Origin: Phycisphaerales bacterium | GTDB taxonomy: Bacteria > Planctomycetota > Phycisphaerae > Phycisphaerales > SM1A02 | NCBI GenBank assembly: GCA_028278245.1 | Contig: JANQEQ010000106.1 | Coordinates: 1-42,218, forward strand | DNA: 42,218 bases | Direction: 5' to 3' | Part shown: piece by piece, positions 2,292 to 35,624 of the stretch | Numbering within the stretch: the first letter of the stretch is position 1 | How the letters are laid out: every line of letters begins with the position of its first letter | Position numbers and translations under genes: made by a program | Notes under the pieces: model-generated | The model's database searches: none | What the model was told of the DNA's origin: nothing | What the model saw: the letters and a program-made list of their open reading frames with translations, nothing else

Positions 2292-5200
2292 TCAGGCTTT
2301 CCGACGAAACTTGCTCTGAATGTCATAGACCAGACTGAGCAACAGTGGAACCAGAAACAGCGTAAATACTGTCGATATCAGTAGACCTCCTACTACTACA
2401 CTACCTAAACCGCGGTAAAGCTCCGATCCGGAACCCGGCATCAGTACCAGTGGTAGCATTCCGCCAATCGATGTGAACGTACTCATAAAGATCGGGCGCA
2501 CCCGTGTTCTCACTGCTTCTGCGATTGCCCGGCGCGGTGTCATCTCCCCTTCAAATTCATCTTCCACATCTGCTTTACCTTCGAGGAAATTCATTGTTTG
2601 ATGCACAATGAGAATCGCATTGTTAACCACGACTCCGATCAGCAGCACAAAACCCAGCATGGTCAGCACATCGAGCATCTGCATGGGCATATAACGGCTC
2701 ATTGCCGTCCACATGAAAACAACAAAGAGTGCGGCAAAACCACCGAGAGTCGCCAGTGGAACACTGAACATAATAACGAGCGGCCTGAGAAAACTTTGAA
2801 ACAGGACACTGATCAGCAGGTAGACCACGAGCAGCGCCAACACCATGGAACTGCTGATCGTGCCAACCAGTGAACCATCACCAAGAAGAGCGGCACGAAC
2901 CGCCTGCAGCTTGCTGGCTGAACCAGCCATTTTGGTTTCAATCGATGGAGGAATCACACCAGCATCGCGATAACCTTCAATCATTGCTTCCAGTTGTTCC
3001 ACTGCTTCCTCAAGAGCGATCTCCGTCGATGGTGTAAGCATGAATGTCACAGCACGCTGACGTCCCACACGAGCAATTTCCTGAGGACTGCGTACGCGCG
3101 TGATTTCAGCTAATGAACTCAAAGGAACCACATGTCCAGTCGGTGTTGCAATGGGAATATCGCGTAAACCAGCCAGTGTTTTGGCTCCCACAACATCTTT
3201 TGAAACAACCTTCAAATCGATCGATTCACCTTTCAGATGATATTCGTCGATAATTGCACCATCTCCATTAGCCGCAACTGCTAAACCGATATCACTCGGG
3301 GTTAAACCTACTTCACTCAGGCGAACCAGATCGGGACGGATCTGTACTTCGGGGCCTGGAAGGTTGAAGTTACTCGGATCGGGCTGCACCTGGGCAAACA
3401 CCTCGGGATGAGAAAACAGATCCATTGCTAATACTGAAGCAGCATCAACAATCTCATCCAGGTCAGGACCGACAAGTTGTAATTTCACCGCCGATCCTGT
3501 AACTCCACCGAGCTGAAACAGAGGCATCTGAAATGCAAATGCGATGACACCGGGAAGAATTTCAGATCGTGCCGCATGATTCCACAAGCTGACCATATCA
3601 ACAGCCCGCTTCGGCTCATCGCAAATACCACCATGGAACATGATTCCCTCAAATGAAACCAGAAAATATTCGTTCACGCTTGGTGGGACAACCGGGGGAA
3701 GCGTGTATCCCCCCCAGGTGACTGGTGTGATCTCTGGCAAGTCTTCGACCGCATCGGCATACGCCGCGGGATCATCCTGTAGATCGCTCGCTTCCCAGTA
3801 AGGACGAACAATATCTTCGATGCGCTCTCCCATCGAACTCATCTTGGCCAGGTTATAACCCGGAGGGGCAAAGACCATACCAAAAGCAAAGTTACGGTTC
3901 CCCTGGGGAAGATAATCTGCAGGCGGCATCAACATAATACTGCCGATGATCGAGATCAGTGTAAGTACTGCAACGACGCAAAGGCGAATCCATAAATGGC
4001 CACACAGGAAGTAGATCATTCGGCCGAAAAAGCGAGCGAAGCGGTGATGCGATTGTTTTCCGTTGTTGTTTTTCCGTTGTCGTTTGAGTACCCGCGCCGA
4101 TGTGCAGGGGATCAAGGTTATGGACACAATCAGACTCAATCCGACTGCCGCACAGATGGCCAGAGCAATATCCCTGAACAGTTGACCCGCTTCCTCCTCA
4201 ACCATCAAAATGGGAATAAACACAGCAATGGTGGTGAGTGTTGAAGCAAGCACCGCCCCCCACACCTCCCGGGCACCGGCATACGCTGCTTCACGTGGGG
4301 TTTTACCCATTTCAATATGACGATAAATATTCTCCAAAACAACGATAGCGTTATCGACCACCATACCTACGGAAAATGCCATACCTGCAAGGCTGATCAC
4401 ATTGATGCTGCGTCCCATGGCTACCATGGCTACCACGGCCCCGATGACTGAAATCGGTATCGCCAGGGCAACGACACTCACACTGCGAATTGACCGGAGG
4501 AAAATGAGCAACACGATGATTGCCAGTGTTCCTCCGATCCAGATGTTGTTTTTAACGAGAGCCAGGGCATCATCGATGTATGTCGTCTGGTCATAAACCT
4601 GTTTGAGTACGAGCTTGCCATTGAGCTGAAGCTGCCTTGCCTGGGATTCCAGAATACCTCCCGGCGCATTAATATCATCGAGCGCATCACGTAAGCCCGC
4701 CATAACCTCCATCACGTTCGAGCCGATTTCACGTTCCACAGCCATGGCTAACACCGTCTTACCCTTGTGACGAACAAAGCTGTTTTGCTCCTTGTAGGTC
4801 TGTACAACTTCCGCCACATCGCGTAATAAAATGTTCCCTGCATCACGGTGTGCTATAACTGTTCGTCTGATCTCATCAAGCGTTTCATATTGGCTTACTG
4901 TCCGCAGGCGTATATCGAGTTTACCGTCTTCACGCTGACCGGCAGACACATTACGATTGGTATCCTGGATCGCACGTGCAAATTCCGTAGGACTGATTCC
5001 ATAATGTGCTAATCTTTCAGCATCAACACGGATTTGCAACTCTCGTTCGGTTCCTCCGTACACGTATGCCTGGGATATGCCTCCCACACGTTCCAGAATC
5101 GGCTCGATGCGATCGACAGCAAAGTCACGGAGTACTGTGACATCAAATTCCGGATCGGTTGTACTGAACACTATCCACGCAATGTAATCACGACTTTCTT

Positions 5201-10800: not shown

Positions 10801-13800
10801 CATTGATGAGCAGCACATACCAAACATCTTCCTCTCCGCCGCAATGGTTTTCGATTCGAATCTGCATCAGGATGTTGAGCAGGTTGTTGTTCCACCGGTA
10901 GAGCAGTTCCTCGAAGTTGAAGTATTGCCAAACGAGGATCTCTACCAGCCGCAGGATGAAGGAACGTACACAATCAAGGTAACAGACCATGAGGGGGAGC
11001 CGGTGATTGGTGAGGTGTCACTTGGGATTATTGATGAATCTGTGTACTACATTCAGTCTGACTATGCAGGTGATCCAAGACCATTCTTTTTCGATCAGCG
11101 TCAATCACATCGAGTACAGACGAGTAGTACTTCCCAGTGGAAAAGTTATGTTCGTCTGACTGAATATCAGGATGATCGCCTGGTCGATGAAAAAGAACTT
11201 TCGTTACTACGTAAACAAGAGATGTACGGTTATGCGCCCGGTGGATATCGCGGATATTTGAAAGGAGCGGGTGTGGGTGGCGGTGGTGGTCATTTTGGTA
11301 CACCCCCAATGGAAGCCGAAGAAATGCGGTTTGATCGGGCTGCTGGTGAATCAGTGGCAAAGATGGCTGCAGGTCAAGCTGTAAATTCCCGGGAGTTTCT
11401 TGGGGCAGAAATTGTGGCTGATGCTGCTATGAGTGCTCCGATGGCACCTGATGGTGATCCGCAACCTGCGATACAGGTGCGCAGTGACTTCCGATCCACA
11501 ATTCACTGGATGGCGGATATCGTCACCGATTCACAAGGCAGTGCCACCGTTGATGTTAAATTTGCCGACTCGTTGACCACCTGGGATGCCACAGCTCGCG
11601 TTTGCACTACTGGCAACCAGTTCGGAATTGGAAAAGTAACCACCAGAACACGATTGCCATTGCTGGTTCGCCTCCAGGCACCTCGCTTCTTTGTTGTTGG
11701 CGATCAGGTAACTATTTCAGCAGTTGTTAACAACAATACTGATGATCCTCTCACTGTGACAGCCTCACTCGAAGCAGATGACCTGGAACCAATCCTGTCA
11801 TCGGACCGTGATTCGACTTTTACCATCACCGTTCCAGCTAACGGTGAAGCACGCGTTGACCGACTCTTCACCGCACTAGCTGAAGGTGATACAACGCTTC
11901 GCGCACAAGTCATCAACAACATGTATTCAGACGCCATGGAAAAAACCTATCCGGTATATGAGCATGGCATTGAAAAATTCCTGTCAAAATCAGGCAAAGT
12001 ACGTGGGGATGAAGTTTCGTTCACTATTGATCTGCCTGCTGAACGACGTGATGGTTCCACCAACATGATGGTGCAAATTACGCCGTCGATGGCAGTTACC
12101 ATGCTGGATGCCCTGCCTTATCTTATTGATTACCCCTATGGCTGCACTGAACAGACGATGAGTCGGTTCCTGCCTGCTGCAATTACCGCAAAGACGCTTA
12201 CCGATCTCGGCCTTGATCCTGATGAGGCAATGGGCAAGGTGTTTGGAGGTATTGAACAGGAGTTTGTTGCAAAAACTCACAAAAGGGGTAAACGACATCT
12301 TGAAGATCTCGATTTCATTATCGATGCCGGCTTGCAACGTCTTTACGACTTCCAGCATAGTGATGGGGGTTGGGGTTGGTGGAAGAAAGGCTCAAGCGAT
12401 CACTTTATGACCGCTTACGTGCTGTGGGGCATGACGATTGCAGCACAGGCGGATGTCGATATTGATCATTATGCCATGCAGGCAGCCGCACAGTATCTTG
12501 CGGTTGAACTCGTTGAAGAAGAAAACTCACCTGACACGCAAGCATGGATGCTGCACGCTCTATCCCTGTACAGCACATTGGATAGGGAATCACCGCATCA
12601 GAAGTATCAAATCAAGGCATACAACAATCTGTGGCAACAGCGCGATGCACTCAATGCGTACACGCGGGCTTTGCTGGCGCTGACAGCACATTTCCGGGAT
12701 GATCCCAGTCGAGCCCGAATTCTCATTGACAACCTGGAAAACGGAGTGCAATACGACGAACGACCCGATACCTCGGTGCTCATCGACGGGCAAATTCCAG
12801 CTCGCGACTCAGTCATGGGCACTGCACATTGGGGTGAAGACGGCATCTACTGGCGTTGGTCAGATGGTGGTGTTGAAGCCACGGCATTTGCTTTGCGCGC
12901 TCTTCTGGCAATCGATCCGGATCATCAATTGATCAAACCGGTCACCAACTGGCTCATCAAGAATCGTCGAGGTGCTCAGTGGAGCAATACACGCGATACT
13001 GCCATCGTTATTCTCACGCTCAATGATTACCTGCGGCAAAGCGGAGAGCTCGCCAACCCGGTGGAGTATGAACTGCTTGTCAACGGGCAGATCGTTTCGC
13101 ATCAGTCCATTTCAGGCAGCGATTTATTGCAGGCTCCCAGCACATTCCATATCAACGATGAATTGATCGAGGATGGTGTAAATGAAATCATCATCCGACG
13201 TCTCTCCGGTGATGGTTCATTGTATTTTGCTGCCGATGTCAAATTCTTCAGTCTGGAAGAACACATCACCCCTGCTGGGAATGAGATTTTCGTCCGCCGT
13301 GATTATTTCAAGCTTCAACCGACGCCAACCCTGCTGAAGGGATATCAATATGAACACGTTCCACTGAAGGACAATGACTCCATTGCCAGTGGTGAGCGTA
13401 TCAAGGTCGTGGTGACGGTCGAGGCGAAGAACCACTACGAGTATCTGGTCTTTGAAGATCTCAAACCAGCCGGTTTTGAGGCGGTTCAGATCCGTAGCGG
13501 TGAGGATCTCATGATACGTGAGTTGAAGTCCAGCGGCGTGGATTACCGCTTCTCCAGTCCAGGTCACGATCCAACAGAAACACTGAACGATCCTCAAGAT
13601 TACACCGGGCGACAATACTGGGTATATCAGGAGTTGCGGGACCGGAAAGTGGCTATGTTCGTATCGAAACTTCCGGAAGGAACCTGGGAGATCACATACG
13701 AACTCCGCGCAGAAACACCCGGCCGCTTCCATGCTCTTCCCTTGCTTGGTCATGCCATGTATGTCCCGGAAATCAGGGCAAATGGACAGGAAGTGAGAAT

Positions 13801-34276: not shown

Positions 34277-34443
34277 ATTGAGCGCAGCTCAATGCCGGGT
34301 CAGTCACCCGGCGTGTATATACACATGGCTAACCACGTCACACCAAAAAAATATTTAGCCCCATGTGAATACACATGGGGCACGTTCGTATTGCTAACGC
34401 CGATCGCATGGGGAAAAAGCCCCGGGTGTAATCACCCAGGGCT
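34277..34443. repeat. Cluster of consecutive palindromes (REP-like)
   Basis: Five palindromic units follow one another. ATTGAGC/GCTCAAT (34277-34293, loop GCA); GCCGGGT/ACCCGGC (34294-34312, loop CAGTC); GTGTATATACAC, self-complementary (34313-34324); GCCCCATGTG/CACATGGGGC (34358-34381, loop AATA); and AGCCCCGGGTG/CACCCAGGGCT with one mismatch (34418-34443, loop TAAT). The last two share the design AGCCCC, a TG-ended arm, a 4-nt AT loop and a GGGGC/GGGCT return. Located between convergent genes, as REP-type elements often are. Confidence 0.75.
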
Positions 34444-34472
34444 AAATAGTTTGATTTGAAAGTTGTATCTTT

Positions 34473-34491
34473 CACCGCTCAGAGAGCGGTT
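34473..34491. terminator. CACCGCTC-type hairpin past a dockerin gene
   Basis: ACCGCTC, AGA, GAGCGGT forms a 7-bp stem 9 bases beyond the stop of the minus-strand dockerin gene. A near-identical hairpin (loop ACA) occurs at 41825-41843, also just beyond a dockerin gene stop. No U-run; possible 3'-end processing or terminator element. Confidence 0.5.
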
Positions 34492-34499
34492 CTACCGAA

Positions 34500-34682
34500 T
34501 CACTCACACGGTCCCCATTGGCCGAGGATCGCAAAGATGTCGTCAATGTTCACTGAGCAATCTTCAGTGAGATCACCTGCGCAATAAGGCGGGCAGGGAT
34601 CAGGGCACACACCCCATAAACCGAGCACTGCAAAGATATCATCAATGTTAACATGATCATCACCGGTCAGATCAGCCGGGCA
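34500..34682 (-). repeat. Dockerin-like tail cassette, copy 1
   Basis: Encodes 60 residues with two calcium-loop repeats, DLTGDDHVNIDDIF and DLTEDCSVNIDDIF, joined by CPDPCPPYCAG and ending WGPCE. The DNA is closely similar to the copies at 35710, 36971 and 41861. Confidence 0.8.
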
Positions 34683-35507
34683 TGAACTTTCGCATTCATC
34701 GGGAATTCCGTTACCGTTGCTGTCTGCACTCGTACCATCGTCGATATCCCATGCGTCTGGAATGCCGTTGGCATTACAGTCATCGTATGGATCATAGGGA
34801 TAGCTCAGGGTTTTACCCTGGTGAATTTCGGCAGGGATATGCCCCAGAGGTTCCTGAACCCAGGATACGATTGTGACATCATCCATGTCGTAACCGCTGG
34901 GATTAGATATATCAAACTCACGTACGAGGGTTATACAATCGCCGGGTTGCAACGTGACATCTTCAGTATCTGCCGCCAATCTGAACGTATTTCTGGAATA
35001 ACCATTGTCCGGCCAACGATCCAGTGTCTGAACCATGTAGAAACGCACAGTCTTGGGTGTCCCACCCGCCTCCAAACAAATGTGAGCCGCATAACGGTAA
35101 GTGCCATCATCAGTGACTTGTTCCCCGATCATGTCCATAGTGACATCAGTCGGGACCGCCTGACGAGTGATGAATTTGCTTTCGTATGTGTTGATCGGCC
35201 AAGCATCGAACAGGCCGTCGTAAGCAAACCAGGGAATGCCGTCACCCCAGATGTTGTAAAACACCCCACGGCTTTCACCCCACGTAAAGGCATAAGCATC
35301 TGATACGTGATACTCAACCACTGCGAAAGTTTCGGGATAAGCATCAATCAAATCTCGAACCACGGGACCCGCGGTACCGCAAGTCCCTCACCACGTCGCA
35401 GTGAAGTACTCCCCCACCACTGTTCGTTCCGCACCGATGACAGGTATCGTCAGGCATGTCACGGCGGCAAAACCTGCCACGGAAACAAAGAGTTTCTGAA
35501 AACGCAT
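34500..35507 (-). CDS. Putative secreted selenoprotein: thioredoxin-fold (Sec-x-x-Cys) with dockerin tail
   Basis: Start ATG at 35507 follows GGAG by 6 bases. Residues 1-26 are a signal peptide (RFQKLFVSVAGFAAVTCLTI). The frame then reads VVGEYFTATW, TGA at codon 40 (35388-35390), GTCGTAGPVV and stays open to 34500: 335 residues if TGA is read. YFTATW-x-GTC is the thioredoxin active-site layout W-C-x-x-C with TGA in place of the first Cys; Cys43 is the resolving residue. The thioredoxin fold continues with FAVVEYHVSDAYAF and a cis-Pro region GIPWFAYDG. A beta-rich domain follows (about 145-240), then an Asp-rich thrombospondin-3-like linker (CNANGIPDAWDIDDG) and the dockerin-like tail. A hairpin begins one base after the TGA. 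Selenocysteine is inferred; the alternative is a nonsense mutation of that same Cys. A GTG at 35363 would drop the signal peptide and active site. Confidence 0.8.
35364..35387 (-). promoter_or_regulatory. Candidate bacterial SECIS hairpin
   Basis: Immediately 3' of the TGA in the mRNA, arms GGGACUUGCG and CGCGGGUCCC pair over 10 bp (two U-G wobbles) around the loop GUAC. Bacterial SECIS elements are hairpins just after the UGA with a G at the start of the apical loop; here the loop starts with G. The loop lies 11 bases after the UGA, nearer than the usual 16 or more, so the match is imperfect. Confidence 0.6.
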
Positions 35508-35624
35508 ATGTTTCTCCAATCCAATAAAAAATGGACATGTACCCCGGTCATTTTGCCGGCGCTATGATCGCCGGGGTATTCTTATTCACTCGACTGTAAA
35601 CGATATTATCCTCAGTGACAACAA

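Follow-up and report, generated by a model that had tools for sequence, protein, structure and literature searches.

A predicted exported selenoprotein with a dockerin-like tail in a Phycisphaerales bacterium, and its TGA- and cysteine-bearing relatives

The gene and its in-frame TGA

The window analyzed here is a stretch of 42,218 nucleotides from a Phycisphaerales bacterium (contig JANQEQ010000106.1). On its minus strand, between positions 34500 and 35507, there is a single frame that opens with an ATG at 35507 and is interrupted at codon 40 by a TGA, its sole internal stop. The frame then runs on for 295 further codons to a terminal stop, also a TGA (34500-34502). We interpret it as a genuine selenoprotein gene, with a probability of roughly 0.94: from the sequence, we predict that the TGA at codon 40 encodes selenocysteine (Sec), and the product is likely to be an exported Sec-x-x-Cys protein with a thioredoxin domain.

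The TGA stands in the context YFTATW-TGA-GTCGTAGP, and ahead of the ATG one reads GGAG and then AAACAT. Table 1 collects the features of the gene. An earlier note on this DNA had described one frame with a ribosome-binding site, a signal-like N-terminus, a lone TGA at codon 40 and a 295-codon continuation, and all of these are found. It had also anticipated that routine gene finding would start at the GTG at 35363 and so miss both signal peptide and active site, and this is what happens: translation table 11 gives a protein of 287 amino acids, and it is this truncated form that appears in our protein search (as P0044).

That gene finders choose this GTG is one point in favor of a different reading, in which translation truly ends at the TGA and a shorter protein is made that has neither signal peptide nor active site. 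Another is that real N-terminally truncated forms, of 29 and 27 kDa, are reported for the protein HBP35 of Porphyromonas gingivalis in the available part of the source. We consider a true stop very unlikely, because the 39 codons that precede the TGA are conserved, both in protein and in codon pattern, because the TGA alternates with cysteine (Cys) among the relatives, and because the genome is predicted to decode Sec.

The genes for such decoding are present. The tRNA-Sec (70.2 bits, anticodon TCA), selA, selB and selD are clustered on contig C39 of the window's genome, so that the search for Sec machinery proposed in the earlier note comes out in favor of a TGA read as Sec. Contig C39 probably belongs to the same organism, since it carries, at C39:19127, the dockerin-like tail that is characteristic of this genome. 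The selD gene (L048:2364-3419, G000:C39) has an in-frame TGA of its own in a UxxK context, a context known for Sec-containing SelD.

Table 1. Features of the predicted selenoprotein gene, in window coordinates
Feature	Position	Strand	Basis
Whole gene, 335 residues, predicted Sec at codon 40	34500..35507	-	sequence
GGAG, putative ribosome-binding site, 6 bases before the ATG	35514..35517	-	read from sequence
Residues 1-26, signal-peptide-like N-terminus (RFQK, hydrophobic run, IGA/ER)	35430..35507	-	by eye
In-frame TGA, codon 40, predicted Sec, at the first Cys of C-x-x-C	35388..35390	-	sequence and alignment
Codon 43 (TGC), second active-site Cys, conserved	35379..35381	-	sequence and alignment
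GTG, table 11 start of the truncated 287-residue open reading frame	35361..35363	-	gene listing, protein search
Predicted selenocysteine insertion sequence (SECIS) hairpin, 7-bp stem ACCGCGG/CCGTGGT, loop GUC, 19 nt past the UGA, -9.2 kcal/mol	35359..35375	-	fold and scan
Competing 10-bp hairpin directly after the UGA (GGGACUUGCG/CGCGGGUCCC)	35364..35387	-	minimum free energy fold of 60 nt
Residues 25-117, predicted thioredoxin fold; His67 and Pro92 (before strand 93-96) conserved	35157..35435	-	model and alignment
Residues 118-240, predicted beta-sandwich as in HBP35 and Omp28	34788..35156	-	model
Residues 276-331, GC-type dockerin-like tail, below the model cut-off	34515..34682	-	profile match

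Alternation of TGA and cysteine, SelB and the downstream hairpin

Relatives were collected by a search of 121 relatives and by a profile search across the class (397 genomes, 81 of which have a match at E <= 0.001); the loci fetched for extraction reach about E 1e-20 or better, with weaker matches left out. A scan of the genome contigs with the single protein found no relative, and a close seven-row alignment did recover relatives. In the column of codon 40, the 89 distinct relatives have a TGA (50), a Cys (35) or something else (4, excluded from the Sec/Cys comparisons). Chance could not plausibly place the TGA in the family's Cys column so often (50 of 89 distinct relatives). The alignment of TGA with Cys in homologues was the check that the earlier note had named beforehand, and the result agrees with it. 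No TGA row has a second TGA within the aligned domain, and the Cys at +3 is kept in 49 of 51 TGA rows. An alignment of 21 members, with Sec written as Cys, shows no variation at positions 40, 43, His67 and Pro92. When the 89 rows are placed on a quick tree, Sec and Cys must have replaced one another 14 times or more.

The TGA copies are spread over 22 genomes, with up to five in one of them (G031) and two in the window's own, the second on contig C79. Outside Planctomycetota they occur in Acidobacteriota (L147, L148, L151, L152), Gemmatimonadota (L154) and Marinimicrobia (L155). In further genome records, 16 loci (8 of which repeat copies already counted) give 21 domain matches, 17 of them with TGA. 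Elsewhere in the phylum, 392 genomes sampled from outside the class gave weak matches only (best E 1.3e-15), and the viral contigs and phage records searched gave no relative. Could the TGA be an error of sequencing or assembly, or the mark of a gene in decay? The genome is indeed a draft, with 180 contigs and 88.8% completeness. Such an explanation is hardly credible when there are 50 distinct TGA copies in so many genomes, and more in other phyla, all with an intact domain.

Some relatives depart from the common motif. In L200 (G299:C45) and also in L090 the order is reversed (CGVU), with Cys first and the TGA at the second active-site position. L129 and L130 are TGA copies in which an Asp aligns to the second active-site Cys. 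L082, L112 and L128 have Tyr, Gly or Ser in place of Sec or Cys, and may be paralogues that have died or taken on another purpose; L128 groups closely with both Cys and TGA copies.

The presence of TGA copies goes together with that of SelB. Among 42 genomes picked from the matches, SelB scores over the cut-off in 23 of the 24 TGA-bearing genomes versus 5 of the 18 with Cys only (Fisher p 3.9e-6, in a statistic that ignores kinship, and with G063 classed as Cys-only from a stop-free match in which the codon itself was not seen). Within the window's own family, the corresponding figures are 2 of 2 and 0 of 13.

The remaining signal is a hairpin downstream of the TGA. The published model of the bacterial SECIS (bSECIS), as given in the available part of PMC13188914, has a stem of 4-16 bp and a loop of 3-9 nt with G in its first two positions, at a spacing of 16-37 nt and with an energy of -7.5 kcal/mol or lower. 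A scan for such elements, run here with no bulges allowed, is passed by 29 of the 50 TGA genes, the window gene included, and by none of the 35 Cys genes. A five-pair core is complete in one register in 29 of 50 TGA genes and 2 of 35 Cys genes; if either of two registers is accepted, these numbers become 35 and 3. The mean folding z-score of the hairpin region is -0.82 for TGA genes and +0.19 for Cys genes. The Gly codon in the loop is GGT in 38 of 47 TGA genes versus 4 of 22 Cys genes, and because this is a bias at a silent site, constraint on the protein does not explain it.

Do these pairs covary? Compared with 500 shuffles, in a test that left out 3 of the 50 TGA genes because of indels, the alignment beats all shuffles in the number of cells paired, in the number of cells with double changes and in the covariation score. 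It does no better than the shuffles when doubly changed pairs (225 of 500) or pair types (261 of 500) are counted.

Fold, tail and known families

The closest fold that we find to that of the predicted protein is HBP35 (PDB 5y1a). In the structure model, the window protein has the same two domains, a thioredoxin followed by a beta-sandwich. The two proteins have 15% identity and differ in important respects: HBP35 is a cysteine enzyme that carries a C-terminal domain of type IX type and binds hemin, whereas the window protein has the predicted Sec and a dockerin-like tail. Omp28 (PF11551; PDB 2r2c) and DUF1223 (PDB 2axo) also rank with the nearest known proteins; the window protein itself has no match to either (E <= 10). 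A match to Pfam Phage-tail_3 (E 0.007, below the cut-off) was set aside as chance.

Conservation of the fold bears on the role of the protein. A selenoprotein with another role, either a selenium-dependent peroxidase or a surface protein that binds heme or a metal, would fit the hemin binding of HBP35 (as described in the available part of the source), the four relatives whose site has Tyr, Gly, Ser or a shifted Sec, and the two TGA copies that have no second Cys. We regard such a role as possible but rather unlikely, given how consistently the family keeps the Cys at +3, His67, Pro92 and the thioredoxin fold.

Is the gene, then, just another member of a family already catalogued? The best-named NCBIfam match of the window protein is NF045500, "Omp28-related selenoprotein", which Table 1 of PMC13188914, in its available part, equates with the hypothetical protein GOS_C and its UxxC motif. 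From what is available of the original description (PLoS Genet 2008, PMC2398784), GOS_C comprises 74 Sec and 312 Cys sequences in the GOS data and has a thioredoxin-like fold. The window protein also has a UxxC motif in a predicted thioredoxin-like fold, and the likeness to GOS_C, as far as the available text describes it, extends to the Sec/Cys pairs and to a SECIS-like element; a dockerin-type tail is not among the features described there. NF045500 matches all 21 members of our alignment A1 at E <= 0.1 (best 8.8e-18). Membership is nevertheless improbable: the window protein scores 20.7 bits versus a cut-off of 200, and in the 13 genomes searched no protein exceeds that cut-off, the best reaching 94.9 bits. 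We would therefore place the window protein as a predicted selenoprotein related to NF045500/GOS_C, but outside it, as judged by model scores. The earlier note knew of no described selenoprotein with this architecture. The statement has to be narrowed, since a UxxC family is catalogued, but it holds in that the window protein falls far below the cut-off of that family.

The literature searched, with most subscription papers outside its scope, contained no paper that joins Omp28 with a selenoprotein; selenoprotein together with dockerin retrieved software for CAZyme domains only, and Phycisphaerae together with selenocysteine retrieved unrelated papers only. The family may be among the candidates of the 2016 lists of planctomycete selenoproteins, as far as the available part of that source goes (PMC4807772).

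The tail is of the same type as that of the GC-type dockerin domain-anchored proteins (NF041540), and it scores 19.4 or 23.7 bits versus a cut-off of 29. Tails of this kind have 90 matches (E <= 0.001) in the window's genome. Cohesin (PF00963) has no match in this 88.8% complete genome, where divergent cohesins could be missed. Display through the dockerin tail, as the earlier note had it, is thus not supported, with the tail under the cut-off and no cohesin found. Between 34515 and 42043 the window has five successive dockerin-like tails, the others being borne by a 277-residue protein, a subtilase, a papain-family protease with FG-GAP repeats and a further short frame. Because these neighbors end in such tails, the gene sits among a run of exported, same-tailed proteins. 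PADLOC gave no match.

A proposed function, and a family missing from databases

The mechanism that we favor would be the following. SelB and the tRNA-Sec would decode the TGA as Sec, helped by the hairpin 19 bases downstream, and the N-terminal signal would export the protein. In the extracytoplasmic space, Sec40 would act as the attacking group and Cys43 as the resolving one in thiol/selenol-disulfide exchange, on a scaffold of thioredoxin and beta-sandwich that resembles HBP35, a surface thioredoxin. The genome encodes two DsbD-type membrane proteins, and solely from their presence we suggest that one of them could supply the electrons. Sorting or anchoring of the protein would fall to the C-terminal tail, probably in a cohesin-independent way. 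On contig C79 of the same genome (G000), the second TGA paralogue (10842-11549) has a gene for a DsbD-type membrane protein (3187-3756) about 7 kb away.

Several observations weigh against this interpretation. For the hairpin, the minimum free energy fold of the window gene is the stronger hairpin that overlaps the conserved one, and the conserved hairpin alone is ordinary in comparison with shuffles (z -1.1). The strict bSECIS scan is failed by 21 of 50 TGA genes, in part due to bulges or a shifted register, and an Rfam scan of 34400-35600 reports no SECIS family. The conservation of the two loop Gs, which are invariant, by itself proves nothing, because both Gs open a conserved Gly codon. 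As for decoding, one genome (G369, 84% complete) has TGA copies and no SelB over the cut-off. The putative export signal was recognized by eye, and residues 1-26 have low confidence in the structure model. Foldseek returns glycosidase beta-sandwich domains as top matches, with HBP35 absent among the best 50. Finally, VKOR was sought and not found, which bears on the direction of redox flow. Set beside these, the Sec machinery, the alternation of TGA and Cys, the SECIS-like hairpin and the co-occurrence with SelB give strong support to the selenoprotein that the earlier note had proposed.

How could such genes have gone unseen? Our protein search passes 144 proteins, and in the best 120 of these, 77 (the window's own included) start at or after profile position 36, past the active site, with 74 starting at positions 36-55. 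None is named a selenoprotein among the matches listed. These late starts are likely caused by the TGA being misread as a stop, as judged from the DNA checked for some of the proteins.

We would give about even odds to a more general proposal, that Phycisphaerae, together with some Acidobacteriota, Gemmatimonadota and Marinimicrobia, have a selenium-dependent extracytoplasmic redox system, composed of multicopy exported Sec oxidoreductases with interchangeable C-terminal sorting tails. It would have escaped notice so far because gene finding removes signal peptide and active site in one stroke. If the selenoprotein reading is right, a family of exported selenoproteins is missing from databases because the TGA strips both from the predicted gene, and its members become concrete targets for the correction of gene models. 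Among Phycisphaerae and allied phyla, selenium would also be in wider use. And since close Sec and Cys copies share one genome (L124 and L127, both in G386), the benefit that Sec brings to an extracytoplasmic thioredoxin would be directly testable.
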